Shown here piece after piece: positions 45,731 to 51,342 of a DNA stretch of 64,000 nt (the first letter of the stretch is position 1; the number at the start of each line of letters is the position of its first letter). The stretch is from Actinomycetota bacterium. Its GTDB lineage: Bacteria; Actinomycetota; Acidimicrobiia; Acidimicrobiales; Ilumatobacteraceae. The translations under genes were made by a program, and so were the position numbers. The notes under the pieces were generated by a model. That model ran no database searches. It worked only from the letters and a program-made list of their open reading frames with translations, and had not been told where the DNA came from. The DNA is taken from contig JACQZZ010000103.1 of the NCBI GenBank assembly GCA_016213625.1, positions 1 to 64,000 of the forward strand, written 5' to 3'.

Positions 45731-45828
45731 ACGATGCGCCGACGAAAACTCCCCTGGGAAGTTCTCTCACGTCCTGTGATCGCGCTTGCGCGCAGGATTG
45801 ACCCGCACCTACCTGCCGTACTGGGCGG

Positions 45829-45856
45829 TTGACGTCCGAGGTCGCGTGACTATGAT
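45829..45856 (+). promoter_or_regulatory. Promoter of the toxin-antitoxin operon
   Basis: TTGACG (45829-45834) and TATGAT (45851-45856) are separated by 16 bases, close to the sigma-70-type consensus. Initiation about seven bases downstream falls at the ATG at 45864. Confidence 0.75.
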
Positions 45857-45863
45857 TCTGGTC

Positions 45864-46136
45864 ATGTCTGACGTGCTGCCGCTCGCCGAGGTCAAGGCCA
45901 AGTTCTCCGAGATGGTTGATCGCGTGGAACAGCAACACGACCGCATCACCGTCACCCGCAACGGCCGGCCGGCGGCGGTGCTGATGAGCGCCGACGACCT
46001 GGCGGCACTCGAGGACACCCTCGAGTTACTCTCGGATCCTGCGGCCATGGCCGACATCGAGCAAGCTCGCCGCGACGTCGTGGCAGGCAACACGGTCTCG
46101 GCCGACGAGATCCGAGCCAAGTACCTGCACCAGTGA
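45864..46136 (+). CDS. Phd/YefM-family antitoxin
   Basis: A 90-residue antitoxin: LPLAEVKAKFSEMVDRVEQQHDRITVTRNGRPAAVLMSADDLAALEDTLELL is the Phd/YefM DNA-binding domain, and the acidic C-terminus would wrap the toxin. The start is the ATG at 45864 because the in-frame ATG at 45852 lies inside the -10 element. This implies a leaderless mRNA. The last four bases overlap the toxin start. Confidence 0.92.
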   Translation: MSDVLPLAEVKAKFSEMVDRVEQQHDRITVTRNGRPAAVLMSADDLAALEDTLELLSDPAAMADIEQARRDVVAGNTVSADEIRAKYLHQ

Positions 46137-46408
46137 ACTCTCCCCAGTGGGTGCTGCGAGTCGCAGCCTCTGCGGAACGACAACTCGCTCGCCTTCCCGA
46201 GCGTGTCGCCGCCGCAGTCGTGGAGTTCCTGGTCGGACCGATGTGCGAGAACCCGCGCAGAGTGGGTCACCCGCTGCAACGCGAGCTCGCAGGAGTGTGG
46301 TCGGCGAGACGCGGGGCGTATCGCGTCATCTACGAGATCGACGACGAAGCCACCACCGTCACCGTCCTTCGAATCGAGCATCGGTCCGACGTCTACCGGC
46401 CCCGGTAA
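46133..46408 (+). CDS. RelE-family mRNA interferase toxin
   Basis: A 91-residue RelE/ParE-fold toxin (VLRVAASAERQLARLPERVAAAVVEFLVGPMCENPRRVGHPLQRELAGVWSARRGAYRVIYEIDDEATTVTVLRIEHRSDVYR). The GVWSARRGAYRVIYEID strand with basic residues is the RelE active-site region, and the C-terminal HRSDVYR is characteristic. RelE toxins cut mRNA on the ribosome. The start is a GTG overlapping the antitoxin stop. Confidence 0.92.
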   Translation: MNSPQWVLRVAASAERQLARLPERVAAAVVEFLVGPMCENPRRVGHPLQRELAGVWSARRGAYRVIYEIDDEATTVTVLRIEHRSDVYRPR

Positions 46409-46497: not shown

Positions 46498-47584
46498 TCA
46501 GGCGGCGCGGGGTTGGGGTCTTCGTGTGGGTGGTGCGCCGCGGGGTTGGCTGGTGCGGGTGGTGCCGTCGGGCCAGGTGATCTTCAGGTCCCAGTTGTTG
46601 ATCCATTCGAGTCGCAGGTCGATGCGGTGCACGAGGTGGTGATGTCTCGAGCAGAGCAACGCCAAGTTCGGATAGTCGGTGAGGCCGTGGTGTTCCCACC
46701 AGTGGATGTGGTGGGCTTCGGTGAACTTCACCTGCCGGTTGCACCCAGGGAACCGGCAACCTCCGTCGCGGGCAGCGACCTGTTTGAACAGATGCCGCGG
46801 CACCGTGTACGTGGCCCGACCAAAGGACAACGGTGTGCCGTCGGGGGCGCGCAGGATGGTGTGGATGATGCAATCACACAGCTTCGTGCCGACACAGCCG
46901 GTGTCGATCAGTTCGCCGGTCTGATCGTTCACCGCTGACGGTGCATCCAGGGTGGTGATGTCCATCGACATCGACACGTGGGGATGATGCCGTGGTGTGC
47001 CGTTGCCAGCGTGGTTCAAGTTGAAGAACGCCATGATGTCGAACAACGCATCACCACGCCGTTCCTCCGCGGTGCGGGTCTCTTGTTTGCCGTGCCAGGT
47101 GAGCGCGTTGTCGATCGCGGTCTCGAACTCCAACCGGCCGGCCGGGTCCAGGCTGAACCGGCCGAGCAGGTGACCGTCACCGGCGACGGCGGTGTTCAAC
47201 GTGCGACGCGGTTCGACGGCGGGTTCGTCGTCGTCCACCAGCGCACCCGCCCGTTGGCGCCACAGATCACAGGCGAGCGCGGTCTGTGCTGCATCCAAAT
47301 CGGCGATGTCCGCGGCGAGGTCTTCCTGCAACTCGCCGAGCAGTGACCGGTACTTCCGCCGATCGCACCTTTCCAACTCGCGCAACTGTGATGACGAGAG
47401 TGCACCGGTGACCGCGCATTCAGCGAACGCGTCGTAGCGGTTCAACAGACCAGTGCGCGACCGCCAGCGCGAACACCGCCAGCTGTTGCTCCAACTCGGC
47501 CCAGCGGGCGGCGAGTTCGGTGGGCGTGACCAAGATCTGGTCGGCGAACCGGTCGAGCACTTCCATGTCCACTATCGTACACAT
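46498..47584 (-). pseudogene. Broken DUF222-HNH endonuclease gene
   Basis: Two frames on the minus strand. The first reads from the ATG at 47584 (MCTIVDMEVLDRFADQILVTP) to about 47450; the second, lacking any proper start, holds the rest of DUF222 and an intact C-terminal HNH nuclease (CRFPGCNRQVKFTEAHHIHWWEHHG...LLCSRHHHLVH). The junction AHW|LLNRYDAF seems to lack 30 or more residues expected in the family, so an out-of-frame deletion is more likely than a one-base slip. Members of this repeat family are common in actinobacteria. An SOS-like box covers the start codon. Confidence 0.8.
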
Positions 47585-47650: not shown

Positions 47651-47854
47651 TCAGAGCAGGATGCTCAGGAGCACGACCACGGCTACCGCGGCCAGCACAT
47701 AGAGCGCTGGGCGCATCATCGATCGCTGGTACTTCCGAGCCCGAGGGTCGTTGTTCATCAACCCTCGCGCGGCGGCGCCGGCCCTCTGGATCTGGCCTTC
47801 GGGGGTGAACACCTCACCGGGCTTGCTGGTGGCGGGTTGCCAGTCCTGGTTCAT
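47651..47854 (-). CDS. Small single-pass membrane protein coupled to the deiminase gene
   Basis: A 67-residue protein: a hydrophilic N-terminus (MNQDWQPATSKPGEVFTPEG), a basic segment (NNDPRARKYQRSMMRPA) and one C-terminal membrane helix (LYVLAAVAVVVLLSILL). The ATG at 47854 overlaps the TGA of the deiminase gene (ATGA), so it is the fourth member of the urease-like operon. No family recognised; it could tether the enzyme complex to the membrane. Confidence 0.75.
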   Translation of the reverse strand: MNQDWQPATSKPGEVFTPEGQIQRAGAAARGLMNNDPRARKYQRSMMRPALYVLAAVAVVVLLSILL

Positions 47855-48894
47855 GTCGACACCTTCGGTTGCTGTTGGGTGATGCAGTGGATGCCGCCCC
47901 CGCAGGCGAAGATGTCGCGGGCGTCGTGGAGCACGATCTCGCGGTCGGTGTACACACGCCGCAGGATGTCGGCGGCCACCTCGTCGTTCGGGTCGTCGAA
48001 GCTGCACAGGATGACCGCGCCGTTGCAGATGTAGTGGTTGAGGTAGCTCCAGTCGACGAAACCCTCGTCGGTTTCCAGCGTTCGCGGCGCCGGCACCTCC
48101 ACCACCTCCAGCGGGCGACCATGCGCGTCGGTGCTGCTGCGCAGGATGCCCAGGTATTCCGTGCTCACCTCGAAGTCGGGGTGAGCCGGGTCCTGCTGCA
48201 CGTGGGCCAGCAACACGCCCGGCTTGGCGAAGCACGTGACGATGTCGATGTGGCCATTCGTGCCGTAGTTGCCATAGTCGGTGGTGAGCCCACGCGGCAC
48301 CCAGATGACGTTGCTCACGTCGAGGAAGCTCTTCAGTTCGGTCTCGACGCCCTCGGAGTTCCACGTGGGATTGCGGCGTTCGTCGAGCTGCACCGTCTCG
48401 GTGACGATGACCGTGCCCTCACCATCGACATGGATGCCGCCACCCTCGTTCACCATGCTCGACGAGAACACCTCGGCTCCAGCGAGCCCGGCGATGAACG
48501 CGCCCGCGTGGCGCTCGTCGGTGGGGTCGGAGAACCCCCGGTCGCCCCAACCGTTGAATGTCCACAGCGTGGCACCGAGTCGGCCGTCGGGGTGCGTGAG
48601 GAACGTCGGCCCGCTGTCGCGGCACCACGCGTCGCCGGTGGGCGTCTCGTGCAACTCGATCGACGGGTCGAGCAACTCGCGGGCGATGGATGACTCGCCC
48701 AGGTTGCACACCATGCTCACCGGCTCGAAGCGGGCGATGGTGTTTGCCACGCTGGCCCACACCCCACGGCAGTGGTCCAGCCACCCGTCGTCGACGGTGA
48801 ACGTGAAGTTGGCGGAGGGGAACTCCATCCAGGTGCGCTCGTGCGGCATCCACTCGGGCGGCATCGAGAATCCGGACAGGCGAGGCGTGCTCAT
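47851..48894 (-). CDS. aguA: Agmatine deiminase / peptidyl-arginine deiminase family protein
   Basis: A 347-residue guanidino-modifying enzyme. MPPEWMPHERTWMEFP at the N-terminus, GDAWCRDSGPTF, NEGGGIHVDGEGTVIVTE, GTNGHIDIVTCF and the C-terminal FACGGGIHCITQQ with the catalytic Cys (~residue 338) are all AguA hallmarks. Agmatine deiminase releases ammonia and leaves N-carbamoylputrescine, a ureido compound. No N-carbamoylputrescine amidohydrolase gene is nearby; instead the urease-like subunits are encoded seven bases upstream. The exact substrate is inferred from family only. Confidence 0.9.
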   Translation of the reverse strand: MSTPRLSGFSMPPEWMPHERTWMEFPSANFTFTVDDGWLDHCRGVWASVANTIARFEPVSMVCNLGESSIARELLDPSIELHETPTGDAWCRDSGPTFLTHPDGRLGATLWTFNGWGDRGFSDPTDERHAGAFIAGLAGAEVFSSSMVNEGGGIHVDGEGTVIVTETVQLDERRNPTWNSEGVETELKSFLDVSNVIWVPRGLTTDYGNYGTNGHIDIVTCFAKPGVLLAHVQQDPAHPDFEVSTEYLGILRSSTDAHGRPLEVVEVPAPRTLETDEGFVDWSYLNHYICNGAVILCSFDDPNDEVAADILRRVYTDREIVLHDARDIFACGGGIHCITQQQPKVST

Positions 48895-48901
48895 GGCGTT
48901 C

Positions 48902-50656
48902 CTAGAGGAAGTAGAGGCGGCTCAGCGAGACCGACTCGGAGGGATCGGAGTACACGGTGTCGCCGTCGAGGGTCACCATGCCGGTGGCGGGGTCCACGTC
49001 GACCGTGCCGAGGCGGTCGTTCAACACCAGGTTGCGCGGCCCGATGTTGCGGTTGTCGCGCACGGCCACTCGTCGGCGACGCGTGGTCATGTGGTCGTCG
49101 CCCGCATCGACCGCTGCCTGGCTGACGAAGGCCACCGACAGGTCGGCGGCCGTCGCACCGAACGACCCGAACTGCGGGCCCAGCACCAACGGCTCGCACG
49201 AGTCGGTCGTGGCATTCGGATCGCCGGTGACGCCGAACGCCGGGAACCCGCTCTTCAGCACCAACTGCGGCTTGGCCCCGAAGTGGTCGGGACGCCAGAG
49301 CACGATGTCGGCCAGCTTGCCCACGTCGAGCGACCCGATCTCGTGCGCCAGTCCGTGGGCGATGGCGGGGTTGATGGTGAGCTTGGCCATGTACTGGCGC
49401 ACGCGGTCGTTGTCGTGCACCGACGCGCCATGGCCGAGGTCCTGCTTGTTCTTCGCCGCCAGCTGGAACGTACGACGCACGGTCTCGCCGGCGCGGCCCA
49501 TGCCCTGCGCGTCGCTCGACGTGATGCCGATGACGCCCAGGTCGTGCAGCACACCTTCGGCACCCATCGTGCCGCCGCGAATGCGGTCCTTCACCATGTG
49601 GTGGTCGCTGTGCGAGTGATGGTTCAGGCCGTGCGCCGAGAAGATCATCTCGTAGTGCTCGTCGAGCGCGTCGCGCCCGAACGGCAGGGTGGGGTTGGTG
49701 CTGCTGCCCAGCACGTTCGGCACGCCGGCCAACTTCAACACGTTGGGCACGTGCCCACCGCCGCACCCTTCGATGTGGAACGCGTGGATGGTGCGCCCGT
49801 CGAGCACGCGCAGCGTGTCGTCCACACTCAGGCACTCGTTGAGTCCGTCGGTGTGCAGGGCCACCTGCACGTCGAACGCCTCGGCCACGTTGAGCGCCGT
49901 GTCGAGGGCACGTGCGTGGGCACCCATGTCCTCGTGCACCTTGAACCCGACGGCGCCGCCCTCCACCAGTGCCTCCACCAGCGGGGACTCGTCGCTGGAC
50001 GACCCGCGCGCCAGGAACCCGATGTTCACCGGCCACTGGTCGAACGCGTTGAACGCGTGACGCAGCGCCCACGGCGAGTTCACGCCCACGCCCCACACCG
50101 GCCCGAACTCCTGGCCGATGATGGTGGTGACGCCGGCGGCGAGCGACGCCTCCATGATGCGCGGCGACAGCAGGTGCACGTGCGTGTCGATCGCACCCGC
50201 CGTGGCGATGAGCCCTTCGCCGCTGATGATGGTGGTGCCGGTGCCGACCACCACGTCGACGTCGTCCAGCATGTCGGGGTTGCCCGCCCGACCGATGCCC
50301 GAGATGCGCCCCTCGCGAATGCCGATGGACACCTTGCCGATGCGACACGTCGCGTCGATGACGACCACGTTGGAGATGACGATGTCGCACGTCGCCTTCA
50401 CCGCGGCCGCCTTCAACAGCAGCCCGTCGCGTGCGGTCTTGCCGAATCCGGCCAGGAACTCGTTGCCGCGTTCCTGCGCGTCGTACTCGATCTGGATGAC
50501 GAGCCCGGTGTCGCCCAACCGCACCCGATCGCCCACGGTGGGGCCGTGGATGGCGGCGTAGTCGTCGGGCAGGATCTCGTCGGGGTGCGTGTGGCTGTGC
50601 GGCACGCCACCGTGCTCGTGGCTGTGCTGGAACTCGCCATGCGTGTGCTGACTCAC
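48902..50656 (-). CDS. ureC: Divergent urease alpha subunit with His-rich N-terminal extension
   Basis: A 584-residue amidohydrolase-fold UreC. Nickel-site residues are present: H159 and H161 (DTHVH), the carbamylated K239 (GFKVHED), H268 (VALHTD), H294 (HAFHIEG) and D382 (SSDAQ). The flap differs: MVCHHL of canonical ureases is replaced by FSAHGL (A341 for the usual Cys; the His is retained as H342), followed by a histidine cluster (H346, H347, H349, H352, H353). Residues 1-24 carry eight His, a nickel-storage-like tail usually seen on accessory proteins. The start is a GTG overlapping the ureAB stop (GTGA). No ureD, ureE, ureF or ureG is in the window. Confidence 0.92.
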   Translation of the reverse strand: MSQHTHGEFQHSHEHGGVPHSHTHPDEILPDDYAAIHGPTVGDRVRLGDTGLVIQIEYDAQERGNEFLAGFGKTARDGLLLKAAAVKATCDIVISNVVVIDATCRIGKVSIGIREGRISGIGRAGNPDMLDDVDVVVGTGTTIISGEGLIATAGAIDTHVHLLSPRIMEASLAAGVTTIIGQEFGPVWGVGVNSPWALRHAFNAFDQWPVNIGFLARGSSSDESPLVEALVEGGAVGFKVHEDMGAHARALDTALNVAEAFDVQVALHTDGLNECLSVDDTLRVLDGRTIHAFHIEGCGGGHVPNVLKLAGVPNVLGSSTNPTLPFGRDALDEHYEMIFSAHGLNHHSHSDHHMVKDRIRGGTMGAEGVLHDLGVIGITSSDAQGMGRAGETVRRTFQLAAKNKQDLGHGASVHDNDRVRQYMAKLTINPAIAHGLAHEIGSLDVGKLADIVLWRPDHFGAKPQLVLKSGFPAFGVTGDPNATTDSCEPLVLGPQFGSFGATAADLSVAFVSQAAVDAGDDHMTTRRRRVAVRDNRNIGPRNLVLNDRLGTVDVDPATGMVTLDGDTVYSDPSESVSLSRLYFL

Positions 50657-51342
50657 GACGACGCCCCCAGGTAGCCCTGCTCGGCAGCTCTGGCCAGCGC
50701 GGCCGCCTTCGCCCCCGGTGCGTCGAGCGGACCGTCGACCAGACCGGCGAAACCGATGGCGATGCGCGCCCCACCGATGGGCAGCAGCGGGGCCTCGGTG
50801 GGCTCGCCCGGTTCGAACCGCTTCGCCGCCCCGGCCGGGATGGCCAACCGCATGCCGTACGCGACGGCCCGGTCGAACGACAGTCGCGAGTTGACCTCGA
50901 AGAAGTGGAAGTGCGACGTGATGCTCACCGGTACGTCGGACGTGTTGGTGACGGTGACGTACACGAGACCCGCGGGAGCGACGGACTCGCGCTCGGCGGC
51001 CAGCACCGCGCCCGGCGCATCGGCGCCCATGCCCGCATCTTCGCCGAACGGATCGCGCACCACCACCATGCGGGTGCCGTCGTCGAACACGGCCTCCACC
51101 TTCACCTCGCGCACGATGTCGGGCACGCCCGGCAGCACATCCGCCTCGGTGAGCACCGACGCACCCAGTGCCGCTGCCTCCATCAGTCGCCGGCCGTCGC
51201 GAGCCGCTTCGCACACGGTGTCGGCGATGAGCGCCGTGGCCTCTGGCACATTGAGCAACAACCCTCGGGCGCGACGAGCGCGGGCCAGTTCTGCGGCGGT
51301 GAAGATGAGCAACCGATCGCGGTCGGTCGGCGTGAGGCGCAT
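50653..51342 (-). CDS. Fused urease gamma-beta subunit
   Basis: A 229-residue UreA-UreB fusion. Residues 1-100 are the gamma part (MRLTPTDRDRLLIFTAAELARARRARGLLLNVPEATALI...) and residues ~105-229 the beta part (VYVTVTNTSDVPVSITSHFHFFEVNSRLSFDRAVAYGMRLAIPAGAAKRFEPG). Such fusions occur in Helicobacter and some actinomycetes. It starts at an ATG at 51342 and its stop overlaps the ureC start. A gap of only 44 bases separates it from the divergent VOC protein. Confidence 0.93.
   Translation of the reverse strand: MRLTPTDRDRLLIFTAAELARARRARGLLLNVPEATALIADTVCEAARDGRRLMEAAALGASVLTEADVLPGVPDIVREVKVEAVFDDGTRMVVVRDPFGEDAGMGADAPGAVLAAERESVAPAGLVYVTVTNTSDVPVSITSHFHFFEVNSRLSFDRAVAYGMRLAIPAGAAKRFEPGEPTEAPLLPIGGARIAIGFAGLVDGPLDAPGAKAAALARAAEQGYLGASS

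Follow-up and report, generated by a model that had tools for sequence, protein, structure and literature searches.

Background

The operon described here joins a fused urease gamma-beta gene (UreAB), a urease-alpha-like gene (UreC) and a gene for an AguA-like, i.e. agmatine-deiminase-like, protein, and its closest described relatives are found among ureases and agmatine deiminases. It lies in a stretch of 64,000 nucleotides (the window; contig JACQZZ010000103.1, positions 1 to 64,000, assembly GCA_016213625.1) from an Actinomycetota bacterium of the Ilumatobacteraceae (the host). With canonical nickel urease the operon shares the subunits, the fold (template modelling score, TM, of about 0.90), the metal ligands and the catalytic histidines; it differs in forming a lineage of its own, in the replacement of Cys319, Ala363 and the GGG loop, in a score below the cut-off of TIGR01792 and in occurring where UreD, UreF and UreG were not found. 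The AguA-AguB pathway also begins with an AguA-like enzyme bearing catalytic Cys motifs, and its net chemistry is the same as the one proposed below, but in our operon a urease-fold complex would replace the nitrilase AguB (N-carbamoylputrescine amidase), and Gly stands where Glu or Asp is found at the position of Glu214 of the Enterococcus faecalis enzyme. The iron urease UreA2B2 of Helicobacter mustelae, which has the urease fold (3qga match) and is independent of accessory proteins, offers a precedent for another metal; we know of no AguA partner for it. Finally, E. faecalis combines agmatine deiminase with putrescine transcarbamylase, and there too the carbamoyl group is removed after the AguA step. 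The transcarbamylase conserves this group as carbamoyl phosphate (PMC3282769), whereas in the operon of the window it would be lost by hydrolysis.

Clusters made of ure(AB)C only were described in 2008 in Streptomyces coelicolor (SCO5525-5526) and Streptomyces avermitilis (SAV2715); they were treated as urease, and the available text does not mention an AguA neighbour (PMC2492869). Another study counts SCO5525-5526 among the urea-utilizing genes and places SCO5527 with arginine decarboxylase pathway homologues; it does not pair them, and reports that neither SCO5525-5526 nor SCO5527 responded to ArgR or arginine (PMC3293853). SCO5527 is, we infer, an AguA homologue. The assignment of SCO5524-5526 to nrdABS (PMC4991794) conflicts with the two other papers and was not used. 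In the available text of the open-licence PMC literature we found no passage that pairs ure(AB)C with an agmatine deiminase. These Streptomyces clusters probably correspond in kind to L051-L065 of our comparison (loci and genomes are cited by our L and G numbers). Similar accessory-free streptomycete loci had been mentioned in an earlier description of the window made from its sequence alone (the preliminary description), and they are indeed present, both in named species of our scan of relatives and in the available text of the 2008 paper.

We consider it about an even chance (roughly 0.5) that the operon encodes a two-step guanidine-to-amine pathway, in which the AguA-like enzyme would make a ureido compound and the UreAB-UreC complex would decarbamoylate it.

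A divergent UreC lineage

The UreAB protein matches Pfam PF00547 Urease_gamma (1.7e-35) and PF00699 Urease_beta (1e-28), as well as the NCBIfam bifunctional urease gamma/beta subfamily (310 bits against a cut-off of 243). UreC matches Urease_alpha of Pfam (3.9e-36) and the AguA-like protein matches PF04371 PAD_porph (7e-100), but both stay below the cut-offs of the corresponding NCBIfam equivalogs, UreC with 606 bits against 680 for urease alpha (TIGR01792) and the AguA-like protein with 275 against 382 for agmatine deiminase (TIGR03380), while their broad family matches are strong. Judged by these scores, the two proteins are relatives, not clear members, of the urease-alpha and agmatine deiminase equivalogs.

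Residues of the UreC site are given in what we take to be the numbering of Klebsiella urease. None of the six metal ligands (H134, H136, K217, H246, H272 and D360) is lost in the divergent UreCs, which also keep H219, H320 and R336, so a working dinuclear hydrolase is to be expected. The comparison used the best 80 of 423 relatives by likeness, from which 72 UreC frames were extracted, 53 canonical ones spanning many phyla, archaea included, and 19 divergent ones, whose named loci are not a random sample. Every divergent sequence (19/19) has Val or Ala at 319, Gly at 363 and no GGG loop, whereas every canonical one (53/53) has Cys319, Ala363 and the loop; moreover, GGGHxPN takes the place of GGGHxPD in 18 of the 19. 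The UreC of the window follows the divergent pattern, and its active-site stretch contains all metal ligands, GQEFGPVWGVGVN in place of the GGG-type loop, Gly at 363, and a flap with Ala at 319 and the kept His320. Exceptions exist: a plasmid group associated with non-ribosomal peptide synthetase (NRPS) genes keeps Ala363, L067 and L046 keep the Asp, and in L046 the loop is deleted.

Phylogeny separates the two kinds of UreC in the same way. A tree of 41 rows splits off 24 divergent UreCs by one branch (support 100/99), a tree of 92 rows splits off 22 (Shimodaira-Hasegawa-like approximate likelihood ratio test, 100), and the branch is unchanged when the lineage-defining columns are left out; L046 and L004 sit on long branches and their exact places are unsure. 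As far as sequences can tell, the divergent UreC is a separate lineage from canonical UreC, and the supposition of the preliminary description that it has a lineage of its own has thus received a fully supported branch. The AlphaFold2 model of the window UreC (mean predicted local distance difference test, pLDDT, 81.6) retrieves ureases with Foldseek at TM of about 0.90.

Linkage of the divergent UreC to an AguA-like gene

The divergent UreC is frequent in a genus, g103, which we take to be Streptomyces from its named relatives and from the 92-row tree. Genes in most loci were called with a simple codon-usage caller. At E<=1e-200, a limit that returned copies of at least 73% identity, 71 of the 121 species scanned carry it, in 78 places; this is a lower bound, as at most 11 first-look candidates were scored per genome and at least one copy was missed (L179). 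An AguA-like gene lies within 3 kb of UreC in all 78 places; in 76 it is downstream, in the same orientation, and separated from UreC by a median of 47 bases. It was likewise found 3' of UreC in 15/15 loci from 14 g103 genomes, and in 15 of the 19 named divergent loci (one cut by a contig end). The linkage, for which the preliminary description had proposed a survey, reaches far beyond one strain, and the possibility that the unit is peculiar to the strain of the window was rejected, since the divergent UreC is widespread in g103 and among the named relatives.

Genomes with and without UreD, UreF and UreG

The preliminary description had remarked that no ureD, ureE, ureF or ureG accompanies the operon. 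None of them was recognised among the neighbour proteins searched (Pfam, NCBIfam). We extended the search to the whole host assembly (4.5 Mb, rated 92% complete), where UreF and UreD gave no match and UreG gave one family match of 43 bits against a cut-off of 204; this part of the claim stands, while UreE was not searched for genome-wide. The host has a single full UreC, the second Urease_alpha match, on another contig, covering 45/121 positions with 24 bits. An unlinked UreDFG set, which would have pointed to ordinary urease, was not found in the host.

Concerning other genomes, a hand-picked set was examined, 28 genomes for UreF and UreD and 29 for UreG, with the caution that absence from draft genomes weighs less than presence. 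UreF is missing in four of the 28, namely the host (G000), G030, G266 and G297, and the same four lack a UreD above the cut-off (G266 has a match of 23 bits against 27). A UreG above the cut-off is missing in five of the 29, these four and G153, in which UreF and UreD were not searched for; at E<=0.001 G030, G297 and G153 do not give even a UreG-family match. Exactly these five genomes of the set have a divergent UreC as their only intact one. The remaining 24 have UreF and UreG above the cut-offs and a non-divergent UreC 44-49% identical to that of the window, the residue marks having been checked in 9 of the 24 (L005-L010, L033-L035), of which L033 is a variant. The most telling genome for an accessory-free divergent operon is G266, which is rated 100% complete: its second UreC is broken and UreF is missing, yet the divergent UreAB-UreC-AguA unit is intact. 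However, 13 of 14 carriers in g103 also keep UreD, UreF, UreG and a second UreC, whose designation as canonical, as in G140 and G214, rests on 44-47% identity; most carriers are therefore not accessory-free genomes.

The AguA-like enzyme and its substrate

The AguA-like protein has the PAD_porph fold and keeps the Cys, Glu, His and Asp motifs that we take to be catalytic. Its predicted structure (pLDDT 88.9) matches the agmatine deiminases of plants and of E. faecalis. Just before the TNGH motif E. faecalis has Glu214, and three other distinct references have Glu or Asp there; at this position AguA-like proteins adjacent to UreC have Gly in 31 of 34 cases, Ile in two and Glu in one, and the window protein has Gly, with no acidic residue. 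Where no UreC gene was called in the locus, 14 of 17 AguA-like proteins have Gly as well, so Gly marks an AguA lineage, not the pairing with UreC. Glu214 presumably holds the amine of agmatine, which together with the Gly makes agmatine doubtful as the substrate of the main group; judging from this position, the guanidine substrate of that group is probably not agmatine. The suggestion of agmatine made in the preliminary description is weakened to the same extent.

The preliminary description had also supposed that the pathway runs without AguB. No host protein reaches the cut-off of the strict AguB family TIGR03381, which agrees with this, but the host does have C-N hydrolases of the AguB superfamily, the best of which, on another contig, scores 247 bits against 410 and has TIGR03381 as its best NCBIfam family. 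In G002, from the host's family, an AguB above the cut-off adjoins an AguA-like gene, and the product of the latter likewise stays below TIGR03380 (285 bits), so that this threshold is a weak test of membership.

The host has a second AguA-like gene (L171 9379-10395, G000 contig 97), 44% identical to the copy of G030; it too has Gly in place of Glu214, and no UreC gene lies in its 19-kb locus.

Proposed pathway and alternatives

In the pathway that we propose, the AguA-like cysteine enzyme would hydrolyse its guanidino substrate, giving ammonia and a ureido (N-carbamoyl) product. UreAB-UreC, a putative urease-fold two-metal hydrolase with a remodelled pocket, would then convert the ureido group to carbamate (ammonia and CO2) and release the amine; its metal and lysine carbamate would be installed with no help from UreD, UreF and UreG. 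The protein families, the kept residues, the lineage split, the tight linkage to an AguA-like gene in one large genus and the presence in genomes in which UreDFG were not found are observations; from them we infer the order of the steps, an N-substituted urea as substrate, the metal and the self-assembly of the metal centre. More tentatively, and with somewhat less than even confidence, the lineage as a whole may be not a urease but an N-carbamoyl-amine hydrolase (decarbamoylase), one that builds its dinuclear metal centre itself and was also recruited into NRPS clusters.

Several observations weigh against the two-step pathway or its generality. An AguA-like gene was not found in four of the 19 named divergent loci (L096, L097, L114, L127), nor in the 17.6-kb NRPS plasmid loci L047-L050, and the limit of E<=1e-200 used in the g103 scan tends to exclude groups like the latter. 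Fourteen high-scoring AguA-like genes in g103 have no listed UreC; contig ends (L174, L182, L187), a broken frame (L177) and the copy missed by the scan (L179) explain five, but the other nine lie in loci in which we found no UreC, and eight of these loci occupy the usual leuB-ilvE-cimA place. The deiminase can thus do without UreC, and the dependence is one-way. One substrate may not fit all, since in a second streptomycete cluster type (L054, L085, L089) Glu replaces the Gly of the main group in the AguA-like protein that has no signal-like N-terminus. The UreCs of L033 (genome G302) and L041 (G184) combine Cys319 with Gly363 and a shortened loop, GGGLGPVTVGITSSG, and in G302 this UreC shares its contig with UreF, UreD and UreG. 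Concerning maturation, bacterial ureases are described in a urease review as requiring accessory proteins for activation (PMC3816311), and in the host delivery of nickel by HypA/HypB-type proteins is possible.

The complex could also be a genuine urease acting on urea with few or no accessory proteins, the AguA-like enzyme making urea from free guanidine or the pairing simply pooling nitrogen. Every catalytic residue for urea hydrolysis is kept. The fold matches include Klebsiella urease with Cys319 exchanged, among them C319A in complex with acetohydroxamate, and, at TM 0.89, the urease of H. mustelae, described as iron-containing (PMC3816311). We nevertheless consider this unlikely, because Cys319, Ala363 and the GGG loop, present in all 53 canonical sequences among the best 80 of 423 relatives, are replaced in all 19 divergent ones, and because such a urease would be redundant in the 13 of 14 g103 carriers that keep a second UreC with UreDFG. 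The order of the steps may instead be reversed, with the UreC-like enzyme opening a cyclic guanidine or ureide imported by an NCS1 permease, in the manner of hydantoinase-type relatives, and the AguA-like enzyme deiminating the product. This permease, which accompanies many units, points to a heterocyclic substrate: it adjoins the unit in L056, in 5 of the 19 named loci and in G471, where the gene order differs. Furthermore, the next fold matches after the ureases are allantoinase and hydantoinase (TM about 0.45) and dihydropyrimidinase, and the AguA-like loci without UreC fit this order equally. On the other hand, UreAB and all urease-type residues are kept, while hydantoinases are not known to have such subunits; no NCS1 gene was recognised by Pfam beside the window copy; and other clusters have ABC (ATP-binding cassette) systems or a major facilitator superfamily (MFS) transporter nearby. 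A reversal thus appears improbable to us. A conserved neighbourhood without a shared pathway, e.g. nitrogen-scavenging genes under one TetR repressor, seems more remote still. The fixed leuB-ilvE-[unit]-cimA site that the unit often occupies in Streptomyces, where vertical inheritance could keep the adjacency, would agree with it, but the linkage persists in the window, in Thermoactinospora (L081) and in G297, and in G471 and G537 with another gene order.

If the proposed two-step pathway is correct, many Streptomyces genes named urease subunit alpha are misnamed, more than half of the sampled Streptomyces species carry a decarbamoylase under the name of urease, and urease gene counts overstate ureolysis. 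A natural sister lineage of urease would do without a dedicated maturation system, and a comparison of the two lineages, which share a fold, would offer a direct test of the role of UreDFG. Guanidine and polyamine metabolism would also gain a decarbamoylation step, besides AguB and putrescine transcarbamylase.

Gene layout in the window

The four open reading frames (ORFs) that the preliminary description had reported as coupled by GTGA or ATGA overlaps and a 7-base gap are all there on the minus strand (Table 1). The conserved unit, however, consists of the first three genes, UreAB, UreC and AguA-like. The 67-residue protein, which had been counted as an operon partner, has no Pfam family, its best match in the other fetched loci is no better than E 0.4, and a search of 79 genomes of the order gave, apart from the window's own ORF, a single weak match that contains two stops; as a member of the conserved unit it was rejected.

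Table 1. Features of the UreAB-UreC-AguA operon of the window and of the interrupted UreC of G266
Feature	Coordinates	Strand	Details	Basis
Fused urease gamma-beta subunit (UreAB-like)	50653..51342	(-)	229 aa; first gene of the operon	Pfam, NCBIfam
Divergent UreC-like subunit	48902..50656	(-)	584 aa; GTG start	Pfam, NCBIfam, site residues, trees, AlphaFold2/Foldseek
GTGA start/stop overlap of UreC and UreAB	50653..50656	(-)	4 bases	Sequence
UreC active-site stretch	49502..50182	(-)	Residue 159 (Klebsiella H134) to 385 (Klebsiella 363)	Codon arithmetic from alignment
AguA-like (agmatine-deiminase-like, PAD_porph) putative guanidine-modifying enzyme	47851..48894	(-)	347 aa; 7 bases after UreC	Pfam, PDB agmatine deiminases, linkage
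67-residue protein, hydrophobic C-terminus	47651..47854	(-)	4-base ATGA overlap with AguA-like gene	Co-located only
Interrupted UreC in G266	L170 5407-8954	-	Split by an IS200/IS605 element (Y1 transposase, OrfB)	

The window UreC begins with a His-rich tail of about 30 residues (MSQHTHGEFQHSHEHGGVPHSHTHP), modelled with low confidence, which could bind metal. No comparably His-rich tail was found in the other 22 loci compared, and a built-in metal store explaining the lineage was thereby ruled out.

Other gene contexts

Many units of the main Streptomyces type have an NCS1 permease and a TetR regulator at their flanks, and the unit often lies in the leuB-ilvE-[unit]-cimA neighbourhood. The order is different in G471 (NCS1 permease, AguA-like, UreAB, UreC) and in G537 (AguA-like, UreAB, UreC). 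The surroundings of UreC, UreAB and an amidase in G030 comprise an SBP5-type ABC system, an aminotransferase and genes of the arginase-family, AguA-like, AguB-like and YtcJ-like kinds; in G297 both UreC and an AguA-like gene occur close to an SBP5-type gene. A YtcJ-like gene is 3' of UreC in L114 and in the plasmid copy L192, the latter also with the MFS transporter. The UreABC genes of G153 adjoin a possible polyamine transporter, an ABC importer in which TOBE_2 and SBP_bac_8 domains were recognised.

Four plasmids (L047-L050, from Embleya, two Streptomyces and Kitasatospora) carry UreAB-UreC, 64-65% identical, at about 7.3-9.7 kb beside NRPS genes. Here the pair lies between a protein of 527-528 residues, with a weak radical-SAM-type hint (E 0.0008, L049), and a 2OG-Fe(II)-oxygenase-like protein; phosphotransferase genes are nearby, and the NRPS protein of L049 carries a nitroreductase domain. 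In the second streptomycete cluster type (L054, L085, L089) two to four AguA-like paralogues are near the divergent UreABC, several with N-termini that by eye are twin-arginine-like or lipobox-like, and an SBP5-type gene adjoins the cluster in L085 and L089. Deimination outside the membrane followed by uptake is possibly what these clusters perform.

Origin of the window copy and neighbouring genes

At E<=1e-160 the divergent UreC was found in one of 298 genomes of the host's order, that of the host, and the window copy is 73-79% identical to copies common in g103. A foreign composition was considered but not found, since GC content and third-position GC of the operon are within 2 standard deviations of the genes of the window. 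Composition being unmarked, the case for transfer rests on distribution and on the 73-79% identity to copies in another family; horizontal acquisition looks like the simplest reading.

Beside the operon, the window has two small plus-strand genes at 45798-46408 that by eye resemble an antitoxin-toxin pair of the Phd/RelE kind. At 46498-47445 a DUF222/HNH-like ORF, with scores slightly under the Pfam cut-offs, adjoins this putative toxin pair.

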